NCBI GenBank assembly: GCA_031281585.1
Contig: JAITFE010000154.1
Coordinates: 1-34,275, forward strand
Reading direction: 5' to 3'
DNA: 34,275 nucleotides
From: Bifidobacteriaceae bacterium
GTDB lineage: Bacteria > Actinomycetota > Actinomycetes > Actinomycetales > WQXJ01
Shown here: piece after piece, positions 9,289 to 34,275 of the stretch
How positions within the stretch are numbered: the first letter of the stretch is position 1
Layout of the letters: each line of letters begins with the position of its first letter
Program-made: the position numbers and the translations under genes
The notes under the pieces: generated by a model
What the model was told of the DNA's origin: nothing
Database searches by the model: none
Seen by the model: the letters and a program-made list of their open reading frames with translations, nothing else

Positions 9289-9447
9289 CTATTTATGATC
9301 ATCTACACGGACGCCCCCCTGCTTACCAGGGTTTGCGCACATCGTCGGAGTGTTTCCCATGTCCACAATCGGATCACTCATCTCGCGCACTTCCCCACAG
9401 AGCGCGCCAAAAGTCTCAACAGGTTCCAATACCGCTGTCGCCATCAT
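9289..9447 (-). CDS. 52-aa candidate RiPP (graspetide-type) precursor peptide
   Basis: A small frame with an excellent ribosome-binding site: GGGAGGTG stands 4 bp before the tandem ATG-ATG start. The product opens MMATAVLEPVETFGALCGEV and ends GKQGGVRVDDHK; it has two Cys (17 and 37), and its C-terminal third contains Asp49, Asp50, Lys42 and Lys52, the residue types that ATP-grasp maturases join as ester or amide crosslinks. It overlaps the last 32 bases of the ATP-grasp gene in another frame, and a strong terminator follows at once. Size, coupling and position fit a precursor peptide. I do not recognise a known leader motif, so the role is inferred from context. Confidence 0.6.
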   Translation of the reverse strand: MMATAVLEPVETFGALCGEVREMSDPIVDMGNTPTMCANPGKQGGVRVDDHK

Positions 9448-10417
9448 ATTCACCTCCCTTCAACAGAGTCGCCGCAATTGCAGTAGCAATTTCTGAGTTC
9501 AGCTGGTCATCGCGCGAGAACCACTGCCCCACGGGGTTGACCTCGAGAAATACGGTGTCACCGGCGCTGCTTTCGACAAGATCTATGGCGCCATAGACCA
9601 ATCCTAGCGCCGACATAGTCGCCTTCAGCTTGGCAACAGTATCGGTGTCGAGTAGCACCCTTGCGGACTTTAGCGTACCTTGCACCGATCGGTGACGACA
9701 GTCGACTGCGTCTTCGAGGCCTTCACCCGTTAGGCGTATAGCGAAGTACCTGCCGCCTACCCATATCACTCGGCATTCCGCCACTTTGCGCACAAATCGT
9801 TGAAACTGGCACGGAGACCGGTCGACCAACTCAATGCGAGAGAGGAGTTCCGAGTCGACCAGGGTCGTTAACGTCTCGCGCCACACCTCCCCATAATCGT
9901 AGTAATACGATTCTATCGGTTTGTACACGGTTGGGCCAGAACAGAATTCCTTTGCCTTGTCACTCGAGTTTGTGACGAGCGTCTTGGGGACCGTTAGACC
10001 GCAGGAGGCGGCGACAACCTGTTGCAGCAACTTGTGCCGCGCGCTTGCGATCGCCTCCGGCCGGTCAACCCAATGCTTTCTGCCCAGCAAGAGCCAGGTT
10101 GACTCAAGAACGTGCCGCAGATCACTTTCGGCCGCCGCCCGCTGAATCTTGTCGGTTATGCGAAAGTCGAAAACGAACGGTCGTCGATACCACACGGAAA
10201 CCATGCTCATAAGATCATTGGTGCAGCCGTTTTCGACTAGCCAAATGCTCGGCCCGTCGTGCGACAGTTCTATTGTCAACCGCTGTTTGCCGTTGCACAG
10301 ATCGTCGGTATTCATTCTCACAGGCGTTCCACCGAGGGCCTGAATCGATGACTCTACTAGATCACTGGTCGGGTGGTCGAGAGAATTGGTCAGCATTAAG
10401 ACCTGCTCGTTCGTCAT
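9416..10417 (-). CDS. ATP-grasp peptide maturase, MvdD/TgmB-like
   Basis: A 333-aa ATP-grasp ligase. The N-terminus (VLMLTNSLDHPTSDLVESSI, then RMNTDD) and the VWYRRP motif are hallmarks of the graspetide maturases (microviridin MvdC/MvdD and actinobacterial Tgm-type enzymes), which use ATP to crosslink acidic side chains to Lys, Ser or Thr of a precursor peptide. Further matches are GLTVPKTLVTNS, VYKPIES in the ATP site and the C-terminal metal-binding DLVESSAGDTVFLEVNPVGQ. ATG 10417 is chosen because the family domain starts there; the Shine-Dalgarno is weak. The likely substrate is encoded immediately downstream. G+C is clearly lower than in flanking genes, suggesting transfer. Confidence 0.82.
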   Translation of the reverse strand: MTNEQVLMLTNSLDHPTSDLVESSIQALGGTPVRMNTDDLCNGKQRLTIELSHDGPSIWLVENGCTNDLMSMVSVWYRRPFVFDFRITDKIQRAAAESDLRHVLESTWLLLGRKHWVDRPEAIASARHKLLQQVVAASCGLTVPKTLVTNSSDKAKEFCSGPTVYKPIESYYYDYGEVWRETLTTLVDSELLSRIELVDRSPCQFQRFVRKVAECRVIWVGGRYFAIRLTGEGLEDAVDCRHRSVQGTLKSARVLLDTDTVAKLKATMSALGLVYGAIDLVESSAGDTVFLEVNPVGQWFSRDDQLNSEIATAIAATLLKGGEYDGDSGIGTC

Positions 10418-11736
10418 CGTAAGGCCGACCGACCGTCTTGCCCAGCGGTGACCACCTGGCGGCTTCTGCGTTGGCTGCTGCGTGTCCCTACGTGTCGCAT
10501 CTCCCATAGGTTCTTGCCCGTGTGCGCGGCATAGGCACTACTACCGCAAGTTCGCGGGTACTCCGGAATGGCTGTGACGCCACTCGTTGTCGGACGCGTG
10601 TGACGCCAACCCGAGAGGTGTTTGCGGCGCGAAGACCCGTCTTCGCGATGGCGCATAATAGGCATTCTGCGTACGGATCCAGCGATTCCTCCGCGTACTG
10701 ATGATTCGCGATAAGCCCAAAAGCGCGCTGCGAAGACCGCAGGCCATTCCCGACTCGCCGTTCCGGAAACCTGCTCATCGGCCTCTACAGCACCAAGGCG
10801 CAAGGGTAATGCCCCCTTGCCTGCGTATTGCCAGCGCCTGGCGTGTCGCCCTTTGGATGATTGCCGTGCCGGATTCGACGTTACCCGGCGCGAGGCTTTC
10901 AAATGCCCTCGATAGGGCCTACAGTCGCCCGAATCAAATATACGCATGAACTGATAGGGGGTCGCGTGCCGCCGTTGAGGCGCTGCGAGCACCCATTGCC
11001 TGCCCTTGTGAATCTCTAGATCATCCCCTCCCAATTCGAGCGCAACCGCCCTGCAACTAGACTCTCCCGCGCATAGGGCGTTTGACAGACCACGGTCCCA
11101 GCTGTTCGCATCGGTGGCGTCTTTGATGGCTCGGCACCAGCCACCGCCAACTTCCGCCCGGCCGCGCACCTGAGCACCGACCGCGTCTTGATCCACTGCT
11201 GCTATTCGAAAGCAGCTCTGCGAACCCGAACTTCTCGGAGAAGTCCGGAAGCGATCAACTTCAACCCTCGGATCGTGTACATCTTCCAGGAATACCTCGC
11301 TTGGGCACCCGGCCCACCGGCCCACCGTGTGCAAAGCTTGGTCGGGCCGCGCGTATTCCGTCCGCGCTTCGCAGATCTGGCCATTCACTTCGTTCATAGA
11401 GCCTCCGTTGGGTTCACTCGCGCCAGGCAGATCACGGAGACAGCCGCCTCGGACGAACCATTCGATTACGTCGCCGAACTCAACATTCTCGCCGACCAAA
11501 TCCGCTGCCGCACCAAGCGGGCGATCTACCAATTCCGAAGTCGGAATATGCTCTGCGCTAATTGCCACAGGCCCCGCCGGCGACCTTGATACAATCGCGC
11601 CCGCCACCGCGCCGCTGTTCCTCAAGCGATTTCCACGAGCCACCACCATACCACCTAACTGCACGGCGACTTGGCTTCTTCGAGCCACAACCAAAGGCTT
11701 TGACCAATTCCTCCAGGCAGAGAGCAGCATTTCGGC
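10418..11736. other. Lower-G+C region without an intact gene
   Basis: About 1.3 kb between the RHS gene and the ATP-grasp gene. A 438-codon open frame exists on the minus strand (10414-11730), but its product is compositionally odd and matches no family I know, and RHS-like sequence shows up in other frames within it. I read the stretch as decayed RHS tip or immunity cassettes rather than a gene. The 5' part of that frame (LVDRPLGAAADLVGENVEFG, then DVIEWF) looks most protein-like and could be a remnant of an immunity gene. Confidence 0.45.
10595..10730 (-). pseudogene. Frameshifted RHS core remnant
   Basis: In one minus-strand frame the sequence reads GLIANHQYAEESLDPYAE, and in another, slightly downstream, NAYYAPSRRRVFAPQTPLGL followed by AS. 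Joined across the shift they resemble the RHS-associated core (ANQYADEESG...RYYDPxxGRFxxPDPLGLA). Broken core-plus-tip copies downstream of a full rhs gene in the same orientation are typical of RHS loci, where old tips are displaced by new ones. Confidence 0.5.
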
Positions 11737-14700
11737 CTAATTGCACCCACTGAAGATGGTCTCCCAGTATGACTTGCGAGTCTTTTGGGTATCCAGATTC
11801 CAGGATTGTTTGAAGACGACCGCAGTATGACACTGAAGTTGCCAGATCAGTTGCTGAGTGCAGTATTGGTTGCCGACTTTCCCGCAGTACTCTGCAATCA
11901 GATCGCGGGGAGAGCCCGGACTGAAGAGGAACAGCGTCAAGCGCCCTTGAGTGGTCGGCGTGACCCGAATTGTCGTTCCACCTTCACCGTTGTCCTTGAT
12001 AATCTCGATCTTGTCGATCAGGTGGTACGGAGTCGTAGACCTTTGGCGCGGGGATTCCTGATTCTGGATCTTCTTTCCTGTTTCGATGCCAGCCCGATCG
12101 AATAGATCCGTGGGAATGATCGATATCAAGTACCCTAGAAAGTCCCTGAATGTCGAAGGATTGTCGCCCACGAATTCGTGCCTTTGAACCGTCACGGGCC
12201 GCTCAAGAGTTCCTCGATACAAGTCAGCCTGAACCCAAGTCGCAAGTGTTGGTTGGTAGGTGCGCGCGTAGTAGTGGACCACCTGGTTGTCTTCGGGGTC
12301 GGTGCGTTCGCCGCTGTAGCCGAACCGGAGGTTCAGGTCCTTGAGTTGGATTCCGTAGTCCGTGTAGTCGGTGTCCTTGGTTTGGAGTTTGCCCTTTTCG
12401 ACCGTGCCCACAATTGAGTAGAGGGCGTCCTGGATGTACCACTCGGGCGTGCCCTTCTTGCCGACCTGTTGGCCCAGCAGTTCGCCGTAGGCGTCCCGAA
12501 GGTAGATTTCCGGGGTTTTGCCGTCCATGGCGTAGACCGGGTCCAGGCCGTCATGGGTCCAGGTCACATGCTCGGTCTTGAGGTCTTGGTTGACCACGCG
12601 GCCCAGCGCGTCATAGGTGAAGGTGACGGCGTGCTTGACGGCCAGTTTGTACTCGAGGGCGGTCAGCGAGGGGCTCCGCTCCTCCAGTTCCAGGGTCAGG
12701 TCCTCGCCGTAGGCGGTCAGGTGGTTCGCCTCGTCGTACTGATAACCCATCAAATTCGGCTTGGCGGTGCCGGTCTTGGTGCTGGAAAGGATCAGGTTCC
12801 CGGCCAGGTCCCAAGTGTTCGTGGTGGTGGCGATCTTCGTCTTCTTGCCACAGTAGCGGCGGGTCTGGACGGACTGGGTGAGCTGCCCGGCGGCATCGTA
12901 GGCGTTGTCCTGAACAATCCAATCGTCCTTCTTGACGGTGCTCGGGTCGTTGGGGGCGGTCCACTGGACGCGGTTGCCGACCGCGTCGTAAACGTAGGTG
13001 GACGGCAGCGCGCCGCCCTCGTCCGCGACCAACCGGCCCAGCGGGTCGTAGGCGTACGTGGCCGTGACCGGCTTGTCCTTGTCGACTTGGCTGGTGCGGG
13101 ACGCGACCAGGCCGGTGTCCGTGTAGGTGTACGCGAAGGACGCCAGTTGCTTGGCTTTCGCGCCCACGGTGGTCAGGGACGCGATCTGGCCGGTTGGCGT
13201 GTACGAGGTCGTCACCACGCTGCCGTCGCCTCGCGTGACGGCGGTCGGCTGACCGGCCGCGTCGTAAGCCACCGTCACCTGCCCGAGTTGGCTGTCAATC
13301 GCCGTGGTCTGGCCGGCCGCGTCCAGGGTGTAGGCCAGTTTCTCCCCGCCGGGCAGGGTCAGGGAGGTCCGGTTGCCCGCCGGGTCGTATCCGTAAGCCA
13401 AGGTGTGCCCGCCGGCGTCCGTGGTCGTGGTGACCCGCCGCAGCAGGTCGTACGCGGTCGTCACCGTGCCGGTGGCGTTGACCGCCAGCGTTTGGTTGCC
13501 GACCTCGTCATACGCGAACGTCTCAGCCTTGCCCGTCGAATAGGCGCGCTTGGTCAGATTCCCGCTCAGGTCGTACGTGTAATTGGCGGTCACGCCGGTC
13601 GCGGCCGTCTCGCTCGCCAGCCGTCCCGCCAAGTCCCAGCCGTACACCGTCACCCGGCCAATCTGGTCGGTCTCCTTGGACACCTGGCCGTTCGCGCCGT
13701 ACTCGAACGCGGTCACCCCGCCGTTGGCGTCCGTGATGGTCGCCAGCAGATCGCGCGGATCGTAGCCGTACTTGGTCGTCACATTCTGCTGGTTCGTGCT
13801 CGGCCCGCCCTCAACCGCGTTTTCCACAACCGACGCCAGGTTTCCGTTCGCGTCATAGCCATACCGGGTCACGATGCCGTCCGCGTCCGTCGCCCCAACC
13901 AGGTTTCCGCCCAGGTCGTAGGCCAGTTTGGTTTTGTGCCCGCCCGCGTCGGTGACCGCCACCGCGCGTCCGGCCTGGTCGTATTCAGTCAAGGTCTTCC
14001 GGCCCAACGGGTCGGTCACCGCCGTCACAAGCCCGCCCGCGTCCAACGCGTACTGCGTGGTGCGGCCCAGGCCGTCGGTTTCCGCCGTGACCCGCCCCAG
14101 CGCGTCGTAGACGGCTTTGCTCGTGTTCCCGTTCGGATCGGTGACGGCGACCTGGTTGCCTGCCGCGTCATAGGCGAACGCCGTCACCCCGCCCAACGCG
14201 TCAGTCTCCGCAGTCACCCGCCCGGCACCGTCCAAGGTGTACGCGGTGGTCGCGCCCCGCTGGTCGGTTTCGGCGGTCAAGCGCCCAGCGGCGTCATAGG
14301 CGCGCGCCACCACGCCCCCATCCGGGTCGGTGACCGAAACGACCTGGTCACGCCAGTCGTAGCCGTAGCTGGTGACCGCGCCCAACGGGTCGGTCACGGC
14401 GGTGATGCGGCCGGCCGCGTCATATGCGGCCGTGGTGACGCCGCCGTCGGGATTGGTGACCTGGGTCGCCAAACCGCGGGCGTCGCGGGCGTAGGAGGTC
14501 GTGAACCCGGCGGCGTCCGTCTCGGCTGTGACCCGCCCGGCGGCATCGTAGGCCGTCTTCGTGGTGTTGCCCCGGCCGTCGGTGATGGCTTTCGGCCGGC
14601 CCAACGCGTCAAGGCTGTAACCGGTCGCGTGGCCGAGCGGATCGGTGATCTTGACCAGCCGGTTTTCTTTGTCGTACCCGTACTTGGTGACCCCGCCGTC

Positions 14701-16956
14701 CGGGGCAGTGGTGGCGAGCAGGTTCAACTCGGTGTCGTACTGGTAGGCGGTGACGGCGCCCCGCTGGTCCGTCCACTTGACCACCTGCGCGTTCGCGTCA
14801 TACTCCCAGGCTTCCCAGGTGGCGTCCGCATAGGTTGTCTTGGTCAGATTGTCGTCCGCGTCATAGGCGTAGCTGGTCACCGCGCCCAACGGGTCCTTAG
14901 CCGAGGTCAGCCGATTCGCCGTGTCGTAGGTGTAAGAGAAGGTCGCGCCAGTCGGGTCGGTCACCGCAGTGGTGTTGCCCCGGCTGTCATAGGCGATGGT
15001 CGTGGTCTGACCCAATTCGTCAGTCACCGAAGTCACATCGCCGTTGGCGTTGTAGACGCTGGTGACGGTGGTTCCGTCCGGATTGGTCACCTTGGTCGGC
15101 AGACCTTGGGCGTTGACCTCGAACGCGGTTGACCGGTCCGCGCCGTCCGGGCCGCCTTGGTCCGTGGCCTTCACCACGTCCCCGGAATTGTTGTACTCCA
15201 GCGTTTGGACCGCGCCGGACGGGTCGGTGACCTTGGTCGGCAAGCCCGCCTGGTTGTACACATAGCTCGTCTTCGCGCCGGTCGGCGTCACCTCCGCGGC
15301 GGTCAGCGCGGTGTTCGTGTACTCCGTCAACGTCACCCCGCCCAAGGCGTCGACAACCTTGGTGACCTGCTTCAAATCGTTCCAGTGGTAGACGGTGACC
15401 GCGCCCGTCGCGTCGGTGAACGTGGTCGTCTTGGCCGCGTCGTCAAACACCAGGGTCCGGGTGTAGCCCATGGAGGTGGTCTGCTTGACCACCCGCGACT
15501 GCTGGTCGTAGGTGTTGCGCAACCACACCACCCCGTCCGCCCCAGTCTCCGAGGTCATCCGGTGGGCGCTGTCGTAACCGAAGCCTTTGACCCGGCCGGC
15601 GGGGCTTTCAAGCCGCACCAGGTCGCCGTCGTTCGAGTAGCCCAGCTTCCACACGGCGCCGCCCGGCCTGGTGAACGCCGTGATCCGGCCCTGGCTGTTG
15701 GTTGCGACCGCGACCGTTTGCCCCGCCTGATCCGTGATGGCGGACAGCTTGGGGAACAAATCGCCGGTCCCGTTGTAGGCGAGGCGGATGGTGTTGCCCT
15801 GGCGGTCGCGCGTCCACGTCAATGCGGCCCGGCCGGTGTCCTCATCCAAGGCGAAGCCCATCGACTCGTCGCCGCTGGCCGAAGTCCAGACCAACGCCGT
15901 GGCTCCGTCATAGCGCAACGTGGCGTAGGCGTCGCTTGGCCCCACGAATCCTCCGGAGCCGTTCGACTCGAACAGGAACGACCTTCCGTCGGCCAGCGTC
16001 ACCCCCGCCGAATCGTCGTCGAAGAGCTGCACGTAGCTGCCGTAGGCGAAGGACCATCCCGTGCCCACCTGCGAATCCAGGCCCGACTGGGCGTTGTAGT
16101 GCAAGGTGGTGTCGACGACCTGGGAGCCCACGCCCGTTAGCTCAAAGAGGGCCTCTGAAGTCACAAAGTTGCCGGTCGACATGGACACCGGGTCCGCCCC
16201 GTAGCGCAAGAAGTTCTGGTACCCCAGGTTGCGCAACCGGGCCAACTCATCCGCCGAGGGACGGCTGGGGTACTTCGAGCAACTGAGCCCGCGCGCCACC
16301 AACTCGTCCTGAATCGCCGCCGTGACGCCGTCCGCGATGTACCCGAAGCCGCGCCCTTCCGGATCAAGAATGACCTCGTGGTCGTAATTGTGGTCAAGGA
16401 ACAGCGCCTCTATCTGCGCGTATGGGAAGGGCAGACCCGAGTAGCCCGGGTACCACGGAGAGAGCGGCGCCGTGCCGACCCCCAACGTGGACGGGCGGCC
16501 GGTGAAAGCCGACACCTGATTCAGGAACTTGGCGGCGAAGCCGGCGTATTCGGGCGGCGCGTACGCCCTGGGGCCGCCGTCGGTCTGCACACCCCACGGC
16601 GAGCCGGTGAGGGCGTTGAACGCCACCGTCACCATAAGGTCGGGGTTGGCAGCCTCCGCCACCGCGCGCCTTGTCGCCACCGGCACCGTCGGCACGTTCG
16701 GATTGTCCCGTGTCAGCACCACATTCGCCTTGCAGTTATCTTGCAGGCGGGTCTTCACCTCGTTGGCCAGCCGAATGTTGAGCGGCAACTCTGTCACCAG
16801 CCCATAAGCGGGCCAGGTCACATGGGCCACGTCGTTGTCGGGGTCCAGCACAACGGTCGCGCGGGCGGCCGCCTCCACCGGCGCTGAAAGCATGAGGGTT
16901 GACGCCGCGACCGCGACCGCCGTCGTCATTGCTACTAAGAAACCGTGACGTCGCAT
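11737..16956 (-). CDS. Secreted RHS/YD-repeat protein with DUF2599-like C-terminal tip
   Basis: A 1739-aa protein. A signal peptide (residues 1-30, ending PVEAAA) is followed at about 33-240 by an Amidase_3-like fold; about 255-340 is a DUF6531-like entry segment (DPVSMSTGNFVTSEALFELT); about 390-1440 holds dozens of YD repeats of the form YDxxGRxTxxTDxxG; the RHS-associated core is at about 1545-1608 (FGYSGERTDPEDNQVVHYYA); and the last ~131 residues are a variable tip. RHS repeats form a shell around a C-terminal toxin. The tip ends QCHTAVVFKQSWNLD...SGCN, matching the CH/WNL/CN pattern of DUF2599. In the amidase part the Zn ligands look lost (LDPDND for LDPGHG, VAFNA for SIHAN). AAGGAG lies upstream of ATG 16956. 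G+C falls sharply in the tip. Confidence 0.9.
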   Translation of the reverse strand: MRRHGFLVAMTTAVAVAASTLMLSAPVEAAARATVVLDPDNDVAHVTWPAYGLVTELPLNIRLANEVKTRLQDNCKANVVLTRDNPNVPTVPVATRRAVAEAANPDLMVTVAFNALTGSPWGVQTDGGPRAYAPPEYAGFAAKFLNQVSAFTGRPSTLGVGTAPLSPWYPGYSGLPFPYAQIEALFLDHNYDHEVILDPEGRGFGYIADGVTAAIQDELVARGLSCSKYPSRPSADELARLRNLGYQNFLRYGADPVSMSTGNFVTSEALFELTGVGSQVVDTTLHYNAQSGLDSQVGTGWSFAYGSYVQLFDDDSAGVTLADGRSFLFESNGSGGFVGPSDAYATLRYDGATALVWTSASGDESMGFALDEDTGRAALTWTRDRQGNTIRLAYNGTGDLFPKLSAITDQAGQTVAVATNSQGRITAFTRPGGAVWKLGYSNDGDLVRLESPAGRVKGFGYDSAHRMTSETGADGVVWLRNTYDQQSRVVKQTTSMGYTRTLVFDDAAKTTTFTDATGAVTVYHWNDLKQVTKVVDALGGVTLTEYTNTALTAAEVTPTGAKTSYVYNQAGLPTKVTDPSGAVQTLEYNNSGDVVKATDQGGPDGADRSTAFEVNAQGLPTKVTNPDGTTVTSVYNANGDVTSVTDELGQTTTIAYDSRGNTTAVTDPTGATFSYTYDTANRLTSAKDPLGAVTSYAYDADDNLTKTTYADATWEAWEYDANAQVVKWTDQRGAVTAYQYDTELNLLATTAPDGGVTKYGYDKENRLVKITDPLGHATGYSLDALGRPKAITDGRGNTTKTAYDAAGRVTAETDAAGFTTSYARDARGLATQVTNPDGGVTTAAYDAAGRITAVTDPLGAVTSYGYDWRDQVVSVTDPDGGVVARAYDAAGRLTAETDQRGATTAYTLDGAGRVTAETDALGGVTAFAYDAAGNQVAVTDPNGNTSKAVYDALGRVTAETDGLGRTTQYALDAGGLVTAVTDPLGRKTLTEYDQAGRAVAVTDAGGHKTKLAYDLGGNLVGATDADGIVTRYGYDANGNLASVVENAVEGGPSTNQQNVTTKYGYDPRDLLATITDANGGVTAFEYGANGQVSKETDQIGRVTVYGWDLAGRLASETAATGVTANYTYDLSGNLTKRAYSTGKAETFAYDEVGNQTLAVNATGTVTTAYDLLRRVTTTTDAGGHTLAYGYDPAGNRTSLTLPGGEKLAYTLDAAGQTTAIDSQLGQVTVAYDAAGQPTAVTRGDGSVVTTSYTPTGQIASLTTVGAKAKQLASFAYTYTDTGLVASRTSQVDKDKPVTATYAYDPLGRLVADEGGALPSTYVYDAVGNRVQWTAPNDPSTVKKDDWIVQDNAYDAAGQLTQSVQTRRYCGKKTKIATTTNTWDLAGNLILSSTKTGTAKPNLMGYQYDEANHLTAYGEDLTLELEERSPSLTALEYKLAVKHAVTFTYDALGRVVNQDLKTEHVTWTHDGLDPVYAMDGKTPEIYLRDAYGELLGQQVGKKGTPEWYIQDALYSIVGTVEKGKLQTKDTDYTDYGIQLKDLNLRFGYSGERTDPEDNQVVHYYARTYQPTLATWVQADLYRGTLERPVTVQRHEFVGDNPSTFRDFLGYLISIIPTDLFDRAGIETGKKIQNQESPRQRSTTPYHLIDKIEIIKDNGEGGTTIRVTPTTQGRLTLFLFSPGSPRDLIAEYCGKVGNQYCTQQLIWQLQCHTAVVFKQSWNLDTQKTRKSYWETIFSGCN

Positions 16957-20108: not shown

Positions 20109-20200
20109 TGGCGGAGAGTGTGGGGTTCGAACCCACGGATGCGCTTGCGCGCATCAACGGTTTTCAAGACCGTCCCGATCGGCCGCTCCGGCAACTCTCC
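20109..20200 (-). tRNA. tRNA-Ser(UGA)
   Basis: The minus strand folds as a long-variable-arm tRNA: acceptor GGAGAGT/ACTCTCC, anticodon arm CGGTC-TTGAAAA-CCG with anticodon TGA, variable stem GATGCGC/GCGCATC and T-arm GTGGG-TTCGAAC-CCCAC. Discriminator G and CCA are encoded (plus strand 20109-20112 reads TGGC). It reads UCN serine codons. Confidence 0.95.
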
Positions 20201-20243
20201 AGGGTTCCCAGGGTACAGGCTGCCCCGGCGGCGCACGATGCCG

Positions 20244-27575: not shown

Positions 27576-28019
27576 GCAGTTGACCTTAGCCCATGCCCGG
27601 CCTGGAGCGAAGCCGCGAGCCGCCCCCGCCACGTTCTGATTGTCGGACGCCCACCAGCGGCTGTCACAGCGGGTGCGGGGCACGGATTGGCGGCGCTCCG
27701 TCTTGCCGCCAATGTCGCTTTCTATCCACCGATGCGCGCCGATTGTCGTTCCGTATCCACTGGAGCGCGGTCATTGTCGTTTCCTATCCATGCTCCCGCG
27801 ACCCGCACCGCTGTGACCAGCCACTACGGAGAACCCCCGAGGATAGGAAACGACACTGGGCACCGCAAAGTGGATGAGAAGCGACACTGGGCACCGCAGG
27901 GTGGATGAGAAACGACACCGGGCGCTGCGGGGCGGACGGGGGATGACGCCGGCTGCCGCCCCGTGGAGGGGAAACGGCATTGGCCGCGGCGCGGGCGAAG
28001 AGGGCCCTGACCGGTGGGA
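27576..28019. other. Divergent intergenic region with array B
   Basis: About 440 bases between the proline-rich gene and the cobalamin riboswitch. It contains the second 31-bp-phased repeat array (27711-27919); promoters for both directions must lie here, but I cannot place them. The 100 bases after the array (27920-28019) are the likely site of the B12 operon promoter. Confidence 0.5.
27711..27919. repeat. Array B: six ~20-bp repeats, 31-bp spacing, 3 direct + 3 inverted
   Basis: Direct copies have their TGT at 27713, 27744 and 27775 (type TGTCGTTTCCTATCCA); inverted copies end their CGACA at 27855, 27886 and 27917 (type GGATAGGAAACGACA). Spacing is 31 bp throughout, and the TGT-to-ACA distance across the centre is 80 bp, identical to array A. 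The outermost copies form an imperfect terminal inverted repeat (13 of 17 positions) beginning TG and ending CA. The shared degenerate core with array A is TGT(A/C)GnTT...ATC. No target-site duplication is clear. Confidence 0.85.
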
Positions 28020-28150
28020 CGCGGTAACCTGGTGCGGTCTGCTGCTCGGGTTTTGGGGGCAAGCCGGTGGGATTCCGGCGCTGACCCGCAACCGTGAAAG
28101 GGCGCCTGGCCAAGCCGGGCGCCGCAAGCCGGAAAACCCCGCCGGGCAAA
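28020..28150 (+). ncRNA. Cobalamin (B12) riboswitch
   Basis: The leader shows the conserved cobalamin core in order: AACCTGGTGCGG near the 5' end, GCCGGTGGGATTCCGG, then GCGCTGACCCGCAACCGTGA, a GC-rich variable stem (GGCGCC...GGGCGCC) and the B12 box AAGCCGGAAAACCCCGCC (28126-28143). It lies about 120 bp before the first gene of the ECF cluster. In known cases cobalamin binding shuts off expression of B12 uptake or synthesis genes, so these genes should be off when B12 is plentiful. Boundaries are approximate. Confidence 0.88.
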
Positions 28151-28273
28151 TGGCTCCGTTAACCGTTGTCGAGGTTTGCCGGTCGGGGCGTCGCTGGGCG
28201 GGCAGGCCCGGGCGGCGGTCCGCCGCACCGTTACACCCGAAGGGTCAAAAGCTTGCCGACTCTCCTAGAACCC

Positions 28274-29485
28274 ATGTCATCTCAGCATGTCGAGACAACT
28301 CCCGCGCCCACGCAAGTCGGCGGGGACGGGGAGCGAAATAGGTACCGTCCCCGTTTTCGGGCGGGCGGGGACGGCCCCGGAAATAGGTACCGTCCCCATT
28401 TTGCTGGGGGTGACCCGCGCCGCCGCCTTGCCGGCCGAACGGCCGCCGCCCTGCTGGCCGCCCTGACCGCGATCAGCCTCGCGGGGTGCTCCGGCGACGC
28501 GCCGGAGGCGCAAGGGTCCGGCACTCCCCCGCCCGCGACCAAGGCCGCCACCTCGACGCCTTCCGCCGGCGGGGACGCCACCGGGGAATCGGCGGGCGCG
28601 GCCGCCGAGTGGCTGGCCCAGAACCTTGTTGACGGCTCGCACGCGGAGGTTGAATACGACGGCGACAAGTTCACCGACGCCGGGTTGACCATTGACGTCA
28701 TGTGGGCGCTGGTCGCAGTCGGGGACTTGGACGCAGCGCGCCGCGTGGCGGACTGGCTGGCTTTGCGGGATACCGCGATCGATTACGCCGGCGACGGCGA
28801 ACAGGCCGCCTACCCCTCGGCCATGGGCAAGCTGGCGCTCGCCTACCTGACGCCCGGCGTCCAGAGCACCCCCGAATACAAGTCGGCGCAGGAACTCGCC
28901 GCGTCAGTCGCCGGACGCCTCAAGCCCGAGGGCCGCTTCCGCGACATTTCCGAATGGGGCGACAACTCGACGCCGGCGGGTCAGGCCTTCGGCATAATGC
29001 TGCTGGTCAAACTCGGCATGCTGGACGGGCTCAGCGCGGATCCGGTGGCGGGATTGGTGGGCGTGGCCTGCGAGGACGGCTCCTACCCGTCCATGTTCGA
29101 CACCGACCCGCCCTGCACAGGCGACGTCGACACCACCGCGATTGTGCTCCAAGCTCTCCTCGCCGCCGGCCAGCCCGAAGCCGCCGACCGCGCCGTCGCC
29201 TACCTGCTCGCCGCCCAGACCGAAAGCGGCCGCTGGCAGAGCTTCGGCGCGGATTCGGTCAACTCGACCGCCTTGGCCGTCAGCGCGTTGAGCCTGGTGG
29301 ACACCCCCGAGGCCAAGGACGCCGCGGCGCTGGGCTTGGAAACTCTGCGCGGTTGGCAACTGCCGAAGACGGCCGCCCTCCCCGCCGCAGACGGCGCCGA
29401 AGGCGACCTCCGAGCCACCGCCCAAGGCGTCCTGGGCCTGACTCAAACCAGTTACCTGGACCTTCTCGACATCCCGCCCAAGTGA
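28274..29485 (+). CDS. Alpha/alpha-barrel lipoprotein, prenyltransferase/transcobalamin-like
   Basis: A 403-aa lipoprotein. The lipobox is at residues 69-72 (SLAGC, Cys72) after the helix GRTAAALLAALTA; a Pro/Thr-rich linker leads to repeated helical pairs with the squalene-cyclase/prenyltransferase pattern: LTIDVMWALVAVGDLDAARR, then YPSAMGKLALAYL, DGSYPSMFD...CTGDVDTTAIV and QTESGRWQSFGADSVNSTA. The same alpha6/alpha6 fold forms the cobalamin-binding domain of intrinsic factor and transcobalamin. It probably displays a B12-binding domain outside the cell. Residues 17-47 are encoded by a GGGGACGG/AAATAGGTACC repeat pair, giving an odd N-terminus. No good Shine-Dalgarno is seen before ATG 28274. 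The next gene overlaps by GTGA. Confidence 0.82.
   Translation: MSSQHVETTPAPTQVGGDGERNRYRPRFRAGGDGPGNRYRPHFAGGDPRRRLAGRTAAALLAALTAISLAGCSGDAPEAQGSGTPPPATKAATSTPSAGGDATGESAGAAAEWLAQNLVDGSHAEVEYDGDKFTDAGLTIDVMWALVAVGDLDAARRVADWLALRDTAIDYAGDGEQAAYPSAMGKLALAYLTPGVQSTPEYKSAQELAASVAGRLKPEGRFRDISEWGDNSTPAGQAFGIMLLVKLGMLDGLSADPVAGLVGVACEDGSYPSMFDTDPPCTGDVDTTAIVLQALLAAGQPEAADRAVAYLLAAQTESGRWQSFGADSVNSTALAVSALSLVDTPEAKDAAALGLETLRGWQLPKTAALPAADGAEGDLRATAQGVLGLTQTSYLDLLDIPPK
28323..28402. repeat. Two-copy GGTACCGTCCCC repeat inside a coding 5' end
   Basis: The 23-bp unit (GAAATAGGTACCGTCCCC plus a T-tract) occurs at 28335-28357 and 28380-28402, a period of 45 bp. Each is preceded by GGGGACGG, which pairs with its CCGTCCCC. 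It is related in style to the 21.7-21.9 kb cluster. In the reading frame the copies become RNRYRPRF and GNRYRPHF, upstream of the signal peptide of the B12 lipoprotein. Confidence 0.75.
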
Positions 29486-30861
29486 CCCCGTTCGCGCTTC
29501 TCCGCTGGCCAGCCGCCCTAGGCTTGGCCCTGCTGACGCTGCCTGCGTCAGCCCAGCCGCCCACTACCCAGGTCCCCGACCGTTCGGCCACCGTCCAGCA
29601 ACAGCCCGCCGATGCCGTCCGCCCACCCGCCACAACCGCCCACGTCAGTCGGTGGGCCGAGGGGCGGACGGAGGGCGCGACCTGGACGCCGCCGGGCCTC
29701 GCCGCCGATGCCGCCGCTTCACCAGCTCGGCTTGCGTGGGTCGGCGGGCGGCTCAATGGCACCACTCGGGTGCCGCCGGGCCTCGCCGCCGACGCCGCCC
29801 CGTCGCGCTCTCAGCCCGCGTGGGTCGGCGGGCGGCTCAACGGCGCCGCTCGGGTGCCGCCGGGCCTGGCCGCCGATGCCGTCCGCTTGCCCACCCGACC
29901 GGCGACCGTCGGGGGGTGGGCTGGGGGGCGGTTGGACGGCATCGTGCGGGTTGGGGAAAGCGGCGGCCGACGTGACGGCGCTTGTCGGGTCGGGGAGGGC
30001 GTCACCGTGGTGGTGGCGGGCGGGGCGTTTGCGCAACCGGCGGTGCGGTGTGTCACGGACACGGTGGGGTCGGCGTTGGCGGCGACGGCGGCGGCGGGCT
30101 TCACCTACGAATTCGTGCCCCGGCAGATCGGTTTTGTCTGCCAAATCGACGGCTATCCGGACCCGTGCAACGGGGCGCCGGCGGACGCCTACTGGTCGTT
30201 GTGGACGGGTAGGGGCGGCGGATGGGTGTATTCGACCACGGGTGCGGCGACCTTGCGGACCCCGGTTGACACGATTGTGGCCTGGTCTTTCGGGGACGGC
30301 GACCCGCCGCCGTTGGCGGTGCCGGAGTTGGCGGCGGCTGGCGGCTCGGGTGGTGGGAACGGCTCGGACGGTGGGAACGGCTCGGGTGGTGGGAACGGCT
30401 CGGACGGGGGTCAAGGATCAGGCGGCGGCAGCGGGAACGGCTCCGGAGATGGCGGCTCAGGCGGGGGTAATAACGGGGACGGAACTGGTTTGAACGGAGG
30501 CGCTACCGGCACGGGCGGCGGGCAAGCCGACAACGGCGGAACCGGCGGCGGCGGGGTTGGTGCGGAGACTGAATCCGGCGGCGGCGCGGGCGAAGACGGC
30601 GGCGCGACGGCCAGCGGGCTGGCCGAGAGCGCCAGCAGCGTGCCGAGCGGCGCCGAAGAAGTGGCCGGGGACGAACGCGCGACCGGGACCGGGGTGACCG
30701 CGAGCGGTGGGATTGGCGAGAGCGGCGCGTCGAGCGGCCGGAACGATGAGGCGGCGGGTTCGGGTGCGGACGGGCCGGCGGGGACGATCGTGGCGGCTTT
30801 GTTGGTGGCGTTGGCGGGTGTGGGGACGTGGGCGGCGGCGTCCCGCCGGGGACGTGGGTGA
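29482..30861 (+). CDS. Surface protein with DUF4430/SCO2322-like (transcobalamin C-domain-like) domain
   Basis: A 459-aa protein. A signal peptide (residues ~1-25, cleavage after PASA) precedes a repetitive stretch (~40-165), then a domain at ~186-273 with CVTDTV, FVCQIDGYPDPCNGAPADAY, WSLWTGRGGGWVYST and IVAWSFGDG. These match the DUF4430-type beta domain found at the C-terminus of transcobalamin and intrinsic factor and in SCO2322-like proteins beside ECF transporters. Two Cys (FVC and DPC) may pair. A Gly/Ser/Asn-rich spacer of about 150 residues leads to one C-terminal helix (GTIVAALLVALAGVGTWAAA) with RRGRG, anchoring it in the membrane. GTG 29482 overlaps the preceding stop. It is a likely partner of the alpha/alpha-barrel lipoprotein. 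Confidence 0.8.
   Translation: MTPFALLRWPAALGLALLTLPASAQPPTTQVPDRSATVQQQPADAVRPPATTAHVSRWAEGRTEGATWTPPGLAADAAASPARLAWVGGRLNGTTRVPPGLAADAAPSRSQPAWVGGRLNGAARVPPGLAADAVRLPTRPATVGGWAGGRLDGIVRVGESGGRRDGACRVGEGVTVVVAGGAFAQPAVRCVTDTVGSALAATAAAGFTYEFVPRQIGFVCQIDGYPDPCNGAPADAYWSLWTGRGGGWVYSTTGAATLRTPVDTIVAWSFGDGDPPPLAVPELAAAGGSGGGNGSDGGNGSGGGNGSDGGQGSGGGSGNGSGDGGSGGGNNGDGTGLNGGATGTGGGQADNGGTGGGGVGAETESGGGAGEDGGATASGLAESASSVPSGAEEVAGDERATGTGVTASGGIGESGASSGRNDEAAGSGADGPAGTIVAALLVALAGVGTWAAASRRGRG
29650..29901 (+). repeat. 84-bp coding tandem repeat (three units)
   Basis: Units begin at about 29650, 29734 and 29818, each 84 bp (28 codons), encoding WVGGRLNGTTRVPPGLAADA or a close variant. The last two units are nearly identical over 50 bp. 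Each unit ends in or near the dispersed 14-mer or a one- to two-mismatch copy (29702, 29786, 29870). Confidence 0.75.
30346..30480 (+). repeat. Gly/Ser/Asn codon tandem repeat
   Basis: Near-tandem copies of GGTGGGAACGGCTCG(G/T) encode GGNGSDGGNGSG-type spacer sequence in the DUF4430 protein. It acts as a flexible stalk between the folded domain and the membrane helix. Confidence 0.6.
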
Positions 30862-32362
30862 GGCGGGCCCGGTGCATCCGGGCGCTTGGTGGCTGTGGGC
30901 GTTGACGTTGGCGGGGTGCGCATCGTTGACCACCAACCCGTTGATTCTGGCTTTGGTCGCGGCGGCGGCTTTGGCGGTGGCGGTGTTGCGGCGGGTGCCG
31001 GCCGCCTGGGCGTTGACGCTGCGTTTGTATGTTTGGCTGGCCGCGGCGGTGGTCGTGGTCCGCGTCGGGTTCCGGGTGGTGTTCGGCGCGGCGGGAGGCG
31101 GTTTGGGGCCGGTCGCGCTGGCGTTGCCGGCGTGGCATTTGCCGGTGTGGCCGGTTCCGGGCGGCGCGGGGTTGGTGTTGTTCGGCCCGGTCACCTGGGA
31201 CGGGTTGTACCTGGGGTTCTGCGACGGCTTGCGGCTCGCCTGCCTGATCTTGGCAGTCGGGGCGGCGAATGTGCTGGCCAGCCCGAAGCGCGTGTTGGCG
31301 GCGTTGCCGGGCGCGCTGAGGCAGGTCGGCACGGCGGTGGTGGTGGCGTTGACGGTGTTCCCGTCGTTGGCGTTGTCGGTGAGCCGAGTCCGCCGGGCGG
31401 CGCGGCTGCGCGGGCCGGCGGCGTCTAGGCGCCAGGCGGTCCACCGGGTCGTGTTCCCGGTTTTGGCGGATTCGCTGGACCGATCGTTGGAGTTGGCGGC
31501 CTCGTTGGAGTCGCGCGGCTATGGCGCGGCCGGGCGGCGGGTCGGGCGGGCTGTTCGGGGCGCGCGGGCGCTGGCCAGCGCCGTGGTCCTGGCGGGCATG
31601 GCCGGCGGGGCGTTGGGCGTGACCAGCGGCCGGGGCGCGGCGGGCTGGCCGGTGTTGGCCGCCTCGGTGGTGGCGGCGGGGTTCTTGCTGCGCTGGCTTG
31701 GCGCGGACGTGGGCGCGACACGGCTGCGCCGCGAGGGTTGGAGCGCCCGTGATTGGCTGATCGCGGGCGGGGCGGCGGCGTGCGCCCTGGGGTTGGCGTT
31801 GTCCCCGGCCTTGACCGGCTCGCGCGCGCTGCATCCTGGTTCGCTGGGGTGGCCGCCGCTGCCGTGGCCGGCCCTTGCGGGGTTGGCGGCGTGCGTCTTC
31901 ATGCCGCTGTGGGCCGTCCCCGCGTCGGCCGGCCGCGCGGCGCGGCCAACTTCCTCTGGCGCCGGGCCAACTGAGCTCGGGCCCGGCCCCTTACACGGGC
32001 GCGGAACCCCGCCCCAGCAGCCGGACCAGACCCCCGTGCCTGCCGACCGAGTCGTCCCGGCGGGGCCAACTTCCTCTGGCACCGGGCCAACTGGGCTCGG
32101 GCCCGGCCCCGGACACGCCGGGCCGTCCCAGGGCACTCCCGGCCTCGGGCACGCCGGGCCAACTCATATCCCGCACGGACACGGGCACGAAACCCCGCCC
32201 CAGCACCCAGACCAGACCCCCGCCGCAGACCCGGCCGACCGTGAGACGGCGGGACGCGCGGCCGCCGGCCAGGTTGCGGGCAGTCCCGTCCGCCGAGCGG
32301 GCTTTCGCCTGGCCGGCCGGGTTGTCCCGGCGGGGCCGGGGGAGGGGGCGGACCAGTCGTGA
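30854..32362 (+). CDS. ecfT: ECF transporter T component (EcfT) with repetitive C-terminal tail
   Basis: A 502-aa membrane protein, far longer than the usual ~260. The first ~355 residues hold six or more helices and the two coupling-helix motifs of EcfT: RRAARLRG and LESRGYG (the ARG motifs), which contact the ATPases. The last ~140 residues are Pro/Gly-rich with repeats (PTSSGxGPTxLGPGP, TPPQxPDQTP). EcfT links substrate-binding S components to EcfA ATPases. GTG 30854 overlaps the previous stop by 8 bp; GTG 30872 is an alternative. Its TGA overlaps the GTG of ecfA. Confidence 0.83.
   Translation: MGEAGPVHPGAWWLWALTLAGCASLTTNPLILALVAAAALAVAVLRRVPAAWALTLRLYVWLAAAVVVVRVGFRVVFGAAGGGLGPVALALPAWHLPVWPVPGGAGLVLFGPVTWDGLYLGFCDGLRLACLILAVGAANVLASPKRVLAALPGALRQVGTAVVVALTVFPSLALSVSRVRRAARLRGPAASRRQAVHRVVFPVLADSLDRSLELAASLESRGYGAAGRRVGRAVRGARALASAVVLAGMAGGALGVTSGRGAAGWPVLAASVVAAGFLLRWLGADVGATRLRREGWSARDWLIAGGAAACALGLALSPALTGSRALHPGSLGWPPLPWPALAGLAACVFMPLWAVPASAGRAARPTSSGAGPTELGPGPLHGRGTPPQQPDQTPVPADRVVPAGPTSSGTGPTGLGPGPGHAGPSQGTPGLGHAGPTHIPHGHGHETPPQHPDQTPAADPADRETAGRAAAGQVAGSPVRRAGFRLAGRVVPAGPGEGADQS
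31944..32110 (+). repeat. Direct repeats in the EcfT tail
   Basis: A 47-bp unit at 31944-31990 recurs at 32064-32110 with two mismatches (period 120 bp, 40 codons). Further repeats in the same tail are CCCGCCCCAGCA(G/C)CC near 32008 and 32192. They account for the extended low-complexity C-terminus. Confidence 0.75.
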
Positions 32363-33936
32363 TCCGGTTCGAGGGCGTGGGTTTCAGCTATCCGGGGGCC
32401 GGGCGGCCGGTGCTGCGGGACGTCGACTTGGCGTTGGAGCGGGGCGAGTTGGCGTTGGTGGTCGGCCCGACGGGGGCGGGCAAGTCGACCCTGCTGAAGG
32501 CCGTCAACGGGTTGGTCCCGCATTTCACCGGGGGCAGGTTGACGGGCCGGGTGGTGGTGGGCGGGCGTTCCACCGAGGCCAACCCGCCGCGGATGATGGC
32601 CGGCCTGGTGGGGTATGTGGGCCAGGACCCGGCGGCGGGGTTCGTCACGGACCGGGTCGAGGACGAACTCGCCTACACCATGGAGCAGCAGGGCGTCCCG
32701 CCAACGGCCATGCGGGCCAGGGTCGAGGAGATCCTGGACCTGTTGGGGTTGGCGGGGTTGCGGGGCCGCGACCCGGGGTCCCTGTCGGCCGGGCAGGCCC
32801 AGCGGGTCGCCATGGGCGCGGCGCTCACAGCCCACCCGAAGATTTTGGTCTTGGACGAGCCGACGTCCGCCCTGGACCCGGCCGCCGCCGAGGACGCGAT
32901 GGCGGCGATCGGCCGCCTGGTCCACGACTTGGACCTGACGGTCTTGATGGCCGAGCACCGCCTGGAGCGCGTCATCCAGTTCGCCGACCGGATTGTGCGC
33001 GTGGACGGAGACGGGTCGGTCACCGCCGGGCCTCCCCGCGACCAGTTGGCGACCAGCCCGGTCGCGCCGCCGCTGGTCCGATTGGCCCGCGCCCTGGGCT
33101 GGCCCGAGTTGCCCCTGACCGTCCGCGAAGCCCGCCGCGCCGCCCGCGCGGCCGCGCCCTTGCCCGTTTCGGCCAGCCCGGCCAAGGACGACGCGCCCGC
33201 CCCGGCGTCCGATGCCGTGTGGCCGGTCCGCGATGTGCGGGTCACCCATCCCGGCGGCGTCCAGGCCGTCAGGGGGGTCGGCTTCGACCTGGCCTTCGGC
33301 CGGATCGCCGGGCTGATGGGGCGCAACGGCGCCGGCAAGACGTCCCTGCTGTGGGCTTTGGTCCGGGACCCCAAGGGGCGGCCACGACCGGACGTGATGT
33401 TGGTGCCCGCCCAGCCGACCGACCTTTTCTGGGCGGACTCTGTCGCGCGGGAGCTTCCCTCGCCCGCCGCCGGCGCGTTGTTGGACCAATTGGCGCCCGG
33501 GATCGACCGGGCCGCCCACCCCCGCGACCTGTCCGAGGGCCAGCGCCTCGCCCTGGCCCTGGCCATCCAGCTGAGCGCCGAAACCCGGGTCGTCTTGTTG
33601 GACGAGCCCACCCGCGGGCTGGACTACGCCGCCAAGGACCGCCTGGCCACGATCTTGAAGTCCCTTGCCGCCAAGGGCGCGGCCGTCTTGGTGGCCAGCC
33701 ACGACGTGGAGTTCCTGGCCGTCGCCGCGGACACCATCATGTGGCTGTCCGAGGGCCGCCTGGTCAGCGCGGGCCCGGCTGCCGAAGTCCTGCTGGAGGT
33801 CCCCGCGCACGCCCCCCAAATCGCCAAGGTCATGTCCCCCGCGCCCATCCTGACCCTCGAACAGGCGCTGGCCGCGCAGGCCCTCACCGCCCCGCCCGCC
33901 GACCCGCCGGAAGTCCCCGATGAGCCGGGCGGCTGA
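32359..33936 (+). CDS. ecfA: Fused two-domain ECF ATPase (EcfA-EcfA')
   Basis: A 525-aa protein containing both ATPases of an ECF module. Domain 1: Walker A GPTGAGKST (36-44), Q89, signature LSAGQ (142-146), Walker B KILVLDEP (161-168), H200. Domain 2: Walker A GRNGAGKTS (321-329), signature LSEGQ (391-395), Walker B VVLLDEP (411-417), H448. Both sites look complete, though domain 2 is short in its helical part. A ~35-residue Ala/Pro linker joins them. Single-chain EcfAA' proteins occur in actinobacteria. It energises transport with EcfT and the S component encoded on either side. Confidence 0.93.
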   Translation: MIRFEGVGFSYPGAGRPVLRDVDLALERGELALVVGPTGAGKSTLLKAVNGLVPHFTGGRLTGRVVVGGRSTEANPPRMMAGLVGYVGQDPAAGFVTDRVEDELAYTMEQQGVPPTAMRARVEEILDLLGLAGLRGRDPGSLSAGQAQRVAMGAALTAHPKILVLDEPTSALDPAAAEDAMAAIGRLVHDLDLTVLMAEHRLERVIQFADRIVRVDGDGSVTAGPPRDQLATSPVAPPLVRLARALGWPELPLTVREARRAARAAAPLPVSASPAKDDAPAPASDAVWPVRDVRVTHPGGVQAVRGVGFDLAFGRIAGLMGRNGAGKTSLLWALVRDPKGRPRPDVMLVPAQPTDLFWADSVARELPSPAAGALLDQLAPGIDRAAHPRDLSEGQRLALALAIQLSAETRVVLLDEPTRGLDYAAKDRLATILKSLAAKGAAVLVASHDVEFLAVAADTIMWLSEGRLVSAGPAAEVLLEVPAHAPQIAKVMSPAPILTLEQALAAQALTAPPADPPEVPDEPGG

Positions 33937-34275
33937 CGCGCGGGCGGCGAGTCCGGATTCAGGTCCGGGCTCGGGCACGGGCGGGTTTGGGGACGCCCGG
34001 CCCGGCCGGGGCCGGACGGTGGCTTTGCGGCTGAGGTGGGGGACGGCATCGTCGGTGGCGGTGGCCTCACTGGCGGCGTTGGGGTTGGGGTTTTGGCCGT
34101 TCTTCGGCGGGAGCGGCGCGGACCCGTTCGCCTCTTCGGCGCTGCTGATGGTGCTACTGCCGGCCATGATGCTGCTGATCCTGGCGCAGGTGCTGGAGGG
34201 CGGCATGGACGCGAAGACCCTGGCGCTGCTGGGCGTGCTGTCCGCCGCGATCGCGGCGGTCCGGCCGCTCGGCTC
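33920..34275 (+). CDS. ECF transporter S component (partial, runs off the window)
   Basis: The first ~118 codons are present. After a Gly/Arg-rich cytoplasmic start come helices reading ASLAALGLGFWPFF, then LLMVLLPAMMLLILAQVLEG and DAKTLALLGVLSAAIAAVRP, which is the pattern of the actinobacterial S components encoded next to SCO2322-like and prenyltransferase-like proteins. S components bind the vitamin; the riboswitch suggests cobalamin. ATG 33920 overlaps the end of ecfA by 17 bp. Confidence 0.72.
   Translation, partial: MSRAADARAASPDSGPGSGTGGFGDARPGRGRTVALRLRWGTASSVAVASLAALGLGFWPFFGGSGADPFASSALLMVLLPAMMLLILAQVLEGGMDAKTLALLGVLSAAIAAVRPLG

Follow-up and report, generated by a model that had tools for sequence, protein, structure and literature searches.

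The 34,275-nucleotide stretch analyzed here (contig JAITFE010000154.1, called the window below) is one entire contig of the draft genome of a Bifidobacteriaceae bacterium (G000, 169 contigs). On the plus strand, from position 28005 to the contig end, it carries a cobalamin riboswitch followed by five genes, every gene overlapping its successor. These genes encode two exported proteins and the parts of an energy-coupling factor (ECF) transporter, namely, the coupling subunit EcfT, the ATPase EcfA, and the S component. A preliminary description of the same DNA had given the order after the riboswitch as lipoprotein, membrane-anchored protein, EcfT, double EcfA, and S component, with overlapping genes; the open reading frames bear out this order, and the overlap is seen at all four junctions. 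The features of the operon are as follows.

28005..28160, plus strand, cobalamin riboswitch aptamer (RF00174, 34.0 bits)
28274..29485, plus strand, exported lipoprotein with a predicted alpha/alpha toroid, SCO2321-like, 403 residues (open reading frame; lipobox LAGC, lipobox cysteine at 28487-28489)
28583..29482, plus strand, predicted toroid domain of the lipoprotein (alignment A4; toroid model from the relative L068)
29482..30861, plus strand, exported protein of 459 residues with a transcobalamin-like beta domain, a Gly/Ser-rich linker, and a C-terminal membrane helix (open reading frame, signal peptide, helix, SCO2322_fam below the cut-off)
29980..30336, plus strand, predicted transcobalamin-like beta domain (AlphaFold2 model and structural matches)
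30854..32362, plus strand, EcfT, transmembrane coupling subunit (Pfam CbiQ PF02361)
32359..33936, plus strand, EcfA, 525 residues, two ATP-binding cassette (ABC) ATPase domains in a single chain (ABC_tran, ECF_ATPase_1)
33920..34275, plus strand, S component, first 118 residues, cut by the contig end (homology to complete S components in L018 and others)

The riboswitch claimed ahead of the operon is confirmed: in a comparison of the whole window with all Rfam families, RF00174 matched 28005-28160 (plus strand) with 34.0 bits, above the gathering score of 31.5 (E = 3.3e-5). Under a model built from the riboswitches of relatives (R1), the same element scored 74.1 bits, the window itself being among the 12 training sequences. 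We base the identification on these covariance models; the folding of the 276-nucleotide leader was no better than that of shuffled sequences (z = -1.27). The gap 5' of the riboswitch (27841-27995) contains four imperfect 31-nucleotide direct repeats of the GGATAGGAAACGACACTGGGCACCGCAAAGT type.

The genes of EcfT and EcfA were recognized by their families. EcfT matched CbiQ with 31.7 bits (cut-off 25), and EcfA matched ABC_tran (E = 5.3e-38), its best model being ECF_ATPase_1 (E = 2.3e-63, below the equivalog cut-off). The complete S components read in relatives are about 270-325 residues long and have 6-7 hydrophobic segments. Three of nine of them matched a folate-type S family, weakly and below the threshold, while a profile of all nine, compared with PDB, matched no S component, CbrT included.

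The second exported protein, as read from its sequence, has a signal peptide as well as a membrane helix at its C-terminal end (residues 429-447, about 30766-30822). An AlphaFold2 model of its small domain, computed with 72 aligned sequences, had a pLDDT (predicted local distance difference test) of 89.9. When this model was compared by Foldseek with the whole PDB, the top 19 matches were transcobalamin, intrinsic factor, haptocorrin, and 3u7z, the latter being a bacterial protein from Ruminococcus gnavus; for the same four, VIA-align yielded Z scores of 10.2-11.5 across 93-98 residues, with the first unrelated structure at 6.8. The predicted structure makes it well supported that the small domain shares the fold of the transcobalamin/intrinsic factor beta domain. 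Six positions, two cysteines, two tryptophans, and two glycines, are invariant in all 72 beta-domain sequences.

Transcobalamins end in a DUF4430 domain (PMC4350170), and the membrane-anchored protein had been described as carrying a domain of that type. The predicted fold and the anchor agree with this description, but Pfam DUF4430 (PF14478) itself does not reach the window protein; it matched 3 of the 72 beta-domain relatives, all below the threshold (best E = 0.0067), and a profile comparison between the beta domain and genuine DUF4430 domains yielded E = 2.8e-4 at a probability of 41%. As the sequence link to DUF4430 is weak, the beta domain is identified by its predicted fold. Sequence-only searches of PDB with the beta profile and with a bacterial DUF4430 profile found no B12 carrier, and the hhalign comparison of the beta profile with the transcobalamin beta domain was not significant.

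Among the Pfam toroid families, the lipoprotein obtained only matches that fall short of the cut-offs, in particular, one to SQHop_cyclase_C (E = 0.0008). Pfam Cobalamin_bind (PF01122) was not among its matches; this family was matched by 7 of 64 toroid relatives, below the threshold (best E = 0.006). The toroid was modelled not in the window protein but in L068, an Actinomadura hibisca relative in which the two domains naturally form one chain, using an alignment (A6) where about 14 residues of the single-toroid rows are known to be misplaced. The model (pLDDT 92.4) is an alpha/alpha toroid, and the prenyltransferase-type alpha/alpha repeats earlier attributed to the lipoprotein are correct as a fold class. 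Transcobalamin was found at Foldseek rank 37 (E = 1.7e-3), and hhalign of the toroid against transcobalamin yielded P = 0.0036. The modelled architecture is the right one, yet it is insufficient alone to point to transcobalamin. Of the superpositions on the transcobalamin domains proposed beforehand, that of the small domain succeeds, with a fit to the beta domain; the lipoprotein, judged by the L068 model, falls into the class of alpha/alpha toroids. The N-terminal leader of the lipoprotein contains, at 28319-28402, two in-frame copies of a 39-nucleotide repeat (GGCGGGGACG...GAAATAGGTACCGTCCCC.TTTT), each being a partial inverted repeat; elsewhere among the fetched loci, this motif occurs only in copies of the same stretch.

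The best sequence and structure matches of the toroid being class II terpene cyclases, the lipoprotein could be an enzyme of the terpene cyclase/prenyltransferase kind that stands beside the importer by chance. We regard this as very improbable, since the lipoprotein is exported, its domain is often fused to beta domains, and it occurs in B12-controlled loci of many actinobacterial families (see below). Moreover, at the position of the squalene-hopene cyclase motif DVDDTA, the window reads DVDTTA.

As an unbiased test of what precedes the S component, 80 loci were fetched from genome contigs by the S component alone (alignment A1); by record titles, all were actinobacterial. In 70 of them, more than 700 bases were available ahead of the first recognized gene, and these operons were considered testable. 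A riboswitch lies directly upstream in 67/70 operons; three of the 80 loci (L054, L095, L104) were used in training R1, which leaves 64 of the 67 as independent hits. The system is common in actinobacteria. A beta-type domain is encoded within 65 of the 70 operons and a toroid within 46, or 55 if the whole fetched locus is counted. In addition, 25 toroid or beta domains were found outside the operons, 12 of them with a riboswitch of their own; among these loci are stand-alone toroid genes led by their own riboswitches. Loci with more copies of one domain tend to have more of the other (Spearman 0.60; the species are related, and the p-value is no test of independence).

The two domains have also been joined repeatedly and in both orders. 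In L054, from a metagenome-assembled genome of Nocardioidaceae, toroid, beta domain, and membrane anchor form one chain with the domain order of intrinsic factor, while one-chain fusions with the beta domain first were found in L068, L049, L059, L080, L079, L123, and the Streptomyces plasmid L026. Micromonospora has a toroid-beta-toroid-beta arrangement, and in Amycolatopsis two beta genes follow a double toroid. On contig C86 (L156:720-2600), the genome of the window itself has another locus led by a riboswitch, encoding a beta domain and a toroid, in this order, in one frame of 627 residues; fused or paired loci related to it were found in G001, G006, G007, G009, and G011. In L074 (3561-6020), one frame of 820 residues reads as a toroid, a membrane anchor, a second signal-peptide-like stretch, a beta domain, and a second anchor, and is seemingly two genes joined without a stop.

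These genetic data, that is, the repeated fusions in both orders and the matched copy numbers, suggest that the toroid and the beta domain function as a pair. They bear directly on an alternative in which the operon encodes a B12 importer whose beta-domain protein captures cobalamin by itself, the toroid having another role in the regulon, such as a structural one or the binding of other corrinoids. The higher frequency of beta domains in the operons (65/70, against 46 for the toroid or 55 in the entire locus) and the weak specific kinship of the toroid to transcobalamin favor such an arrangement, but the fusions, the matched copy numbers, and the stand-alone toroid genes with their own riboswitches make it unlikely in our view.

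In order to relate the operon to the use of B12, we considered 18 genomes of the genus and family, including that of the window. CbiC, which is needed for de novo corrin synthesis, was found in none of them. G000 has the B12-dependent methionine synthase MetH and class II ribonucleotide reductase NrdJ, as well as the B12-independent MetE. Its five cobalamin riboswitches lie ahead of the window operon, the C86 fusion, metE, a ribonucleotide reductase locus, and nrdD; of the last two loci (L157 and L158, on contigs C45 and C50), the former contains glutaredoxin-like and class I ribonucleotide reductase genes. Riboswitches at class I ribonucleotide reductase genes and at nrdD are consistent with the presence of the B12-dependent NrdJ in the same genome.

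A B12-dependent enzyme was found in 13 of the 18 genomes, and each of the 13 has at least one of two types of locus, the ECF operon or a toroid/beta locus led by a riboswitch. Conversely, in G002-G005 we saw no B12-dependent enzyme and neither type of locus, while G010, which is 67% complete, has the ECF operon only. If the ECF operon is considered alone, its association with B12-dependent enzymes is modest (10/11 genomes with the operon versus 3/7 without it; Fisher p = 0.047). Together with the riboswitches, the operon's link to B12 is well supported.

The cargo of the importer might still be a related compound, such as cobinamide, another corrinoid, a corrin precursor, cobalt, or a folate-like molecule. 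The cobalamin riboswitches of G000 also govern genes that are not importers (metE and the nrd loci), three of the nine S relatives have the weak folate-type match mentioned above, and CbrT, the S component of a known ECF importer, also takes up cobinamide (PMC5997447). Still, the beta fold is common to carriers of cobalamin itself, and we consider a different cargo improbable. In particular, cobalt import ranks low, as cells lacking CbiC would make B12 neither from cobalt nor from an early precursor.

Several known systems resemble the one described here in part. Like intrinsic factor, transcobalamin, and haptocorrin, it combines a beta domain of the same predicted fold with a putative alpha/alpha toroid partner at a predicted extracellular site, and in L054 the two form one chain in the same order. 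Unlike the animal carriers, the window encodes two membrane-anchored chains rather than one secreted chain, its toroid is only distantly similar, and the proposed delivery is to an ECF transporter and not by endocytosis; cobalamin binding by the window proteins is proposed by analogy. ECF-CbrT of Lactobacillus delbrueckii is likewise an ECF importer proposed for cobalamin, and a B12-dependent ribonucleotide reductase is found both in the cbrT neighborhood (PMC5997447) and in the regulon of the window's host. However, CbrT has no outer capture proteins, and its S component shares a common ECF module. In Bacteroides, BtuG and BtuH likewise catch B12 at the cell surface on behalf of an importer, but they are a beta-propeller and a domain described as having no structural homologues, and they serve the BtuB/BtuCD route (PMC8941943).

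Another counterpart is the Streptomyces SCO2321/SCO2322 set (NCBIfam NF053823 and NF040672), with the same order of toroid, beta domain, EcfT, EcfA, and S component and with a riboswitch in plasmid L026. The suggested kinship to the SCO2322 type holds in so far as both outer proteins match the two families, the lipoprotein matching SCO2321_fam with E = 1.7e-12 and the beta-domain protein matching SCO2322_fam with a significant E-value; the scores, however, are well under the curated cut-offs (47 bits against 300 and 22.4 bits against 85, respectively). Both families are named without a function, and the database names of the parts (SCO2321 family membrane protein, SCO2322 family protein, ECF transporter S component) carry none. 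We found no description of the assembled system in the open-access literature, most subscription journals lying outside the search. The single parts are already present in databases; what appears to be new is their assembly into an ECF importer that very probably serves B12 and has a transcobalamin-like pair on the outside.

We consider it likely that the operon encodes a split, surface-anchored, transcobalamin-like B12 trap that feeds an ECF importer under cobalamin control. The extracellular position proposed for both outer proteins agrees with the signal peptide, lipobox, and anchors, and these export signals and anchors support a location of both on the cell surface. The comparison with a split intrinsic factor or transcobalamin holds for the two predicted folds (that of the toroid in a relative), the surface site, the link to B12, and the pairing of the domains, but the toroid is closer to terpene cyclases.

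In the proposed mechanism, the lipid-anchored toroid, comparable to the transcobalamin alpha domain, and the C-terminally anchored beta protein would both be attached to the outside of the membrane. Cobalamin would first be caught by the beta domain, carried on a long, flexible Gly/Ser-rich linker, and then be enclosed by the toroid. From the loaded pair it would be handed to the S component underneath, which, together with EcfT and the double EcfA, would move it across the membrane, and the riboswitch would turn the operon off at high intracellular B12. We infer binding, clamp closure, and hand-over to the S component by analogy with the animal carriers, whose isolated domains can bind cobalamin; there, cobalamin binds to the beta domain first, the alpha domain closes, and the two domains come together only when cobalamin is present (PMC11107200). 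As the animal domains bind separately and associate via cobalamin, a carrier made of two tethered chains is mechanically plausible. The outer pair may be an addition to ECF import for scavenging at low B12 concentrations, because ECF-CbrT takes up cobalamin without such proteins.

A number of observations weigh against this interpretation. The same ability of ECF-CbrT (PMC5997447) means that B12 import by an ECF transporter can proceed without an outer pair, and the S component is without a confident family assignment. The folds nearest to the L068 toroid are class II terpene cyclases (Z 26). Direct sequence kinship between the toroid and human transcobalamin was considered and rejected: the window lipoprotein yields BLAST E = 0.014, yet only 1 of 64 relatives exceeds the 99th percentile of shuffles. 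Among the 70 operons, 19 have a beta domain without a toroid, and five have neither. Moreover, lone toroid lipoproteins, intact and 71-74% identical to that of the window, occur without a riboswitch or ECF genes in L004 (G001), L016 (G007), and L017 (G005), and in G005 no B12-dependent enzyme was seen. L004 has the same gene as is found upstream of the window operon, so that the toroid locus either predates the transporter or has lost it. The draft genomes G001, G007, and G011 have B12-dependent enzymes and a riboswitch-led pair but no EcfA of the window kind. Finally, importers of the FecCD type, present in 17/18 genomes, could serve instead.

Elsewhere in the window, the minus strand encodes a 1739-residue protein with RHS repeats (11740-16956) and a protein with an MvdD-type pre-ATP-grasp domain (9419-10507), as in the modification of ribosomal peptides of the microviridin type; the 438-residue neighbor of the latter (10417-11730) has no Pfam match. 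A minus-strand match to the Rfam selenocysteine tRNA (20112-20201, 47.5 bits against a threshold of 47) is doubtful, as its anticodon loop looks like that of an ordinary tRNA-Ser.

ECF transporters are understood to capture vitamins by the membrane-embedded S component alone. If our interpretation is correct, an outer trap would add a layer to these transporters and account for the way in which many B12-dependent actinobacteria obtain a scarce cofactor. The toroid-plus-beta carrier may even be truly related to the animal B12 carriers, as an old bacterial invention that has been repeatedly split and fused and from which the animal intrinsic factor family arose; we put this forward tentatively, as a possibility somewhat short of an even chance. 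The system would also give the animal carriers of B12 a counterpart in bacteria, which is possibly their source.

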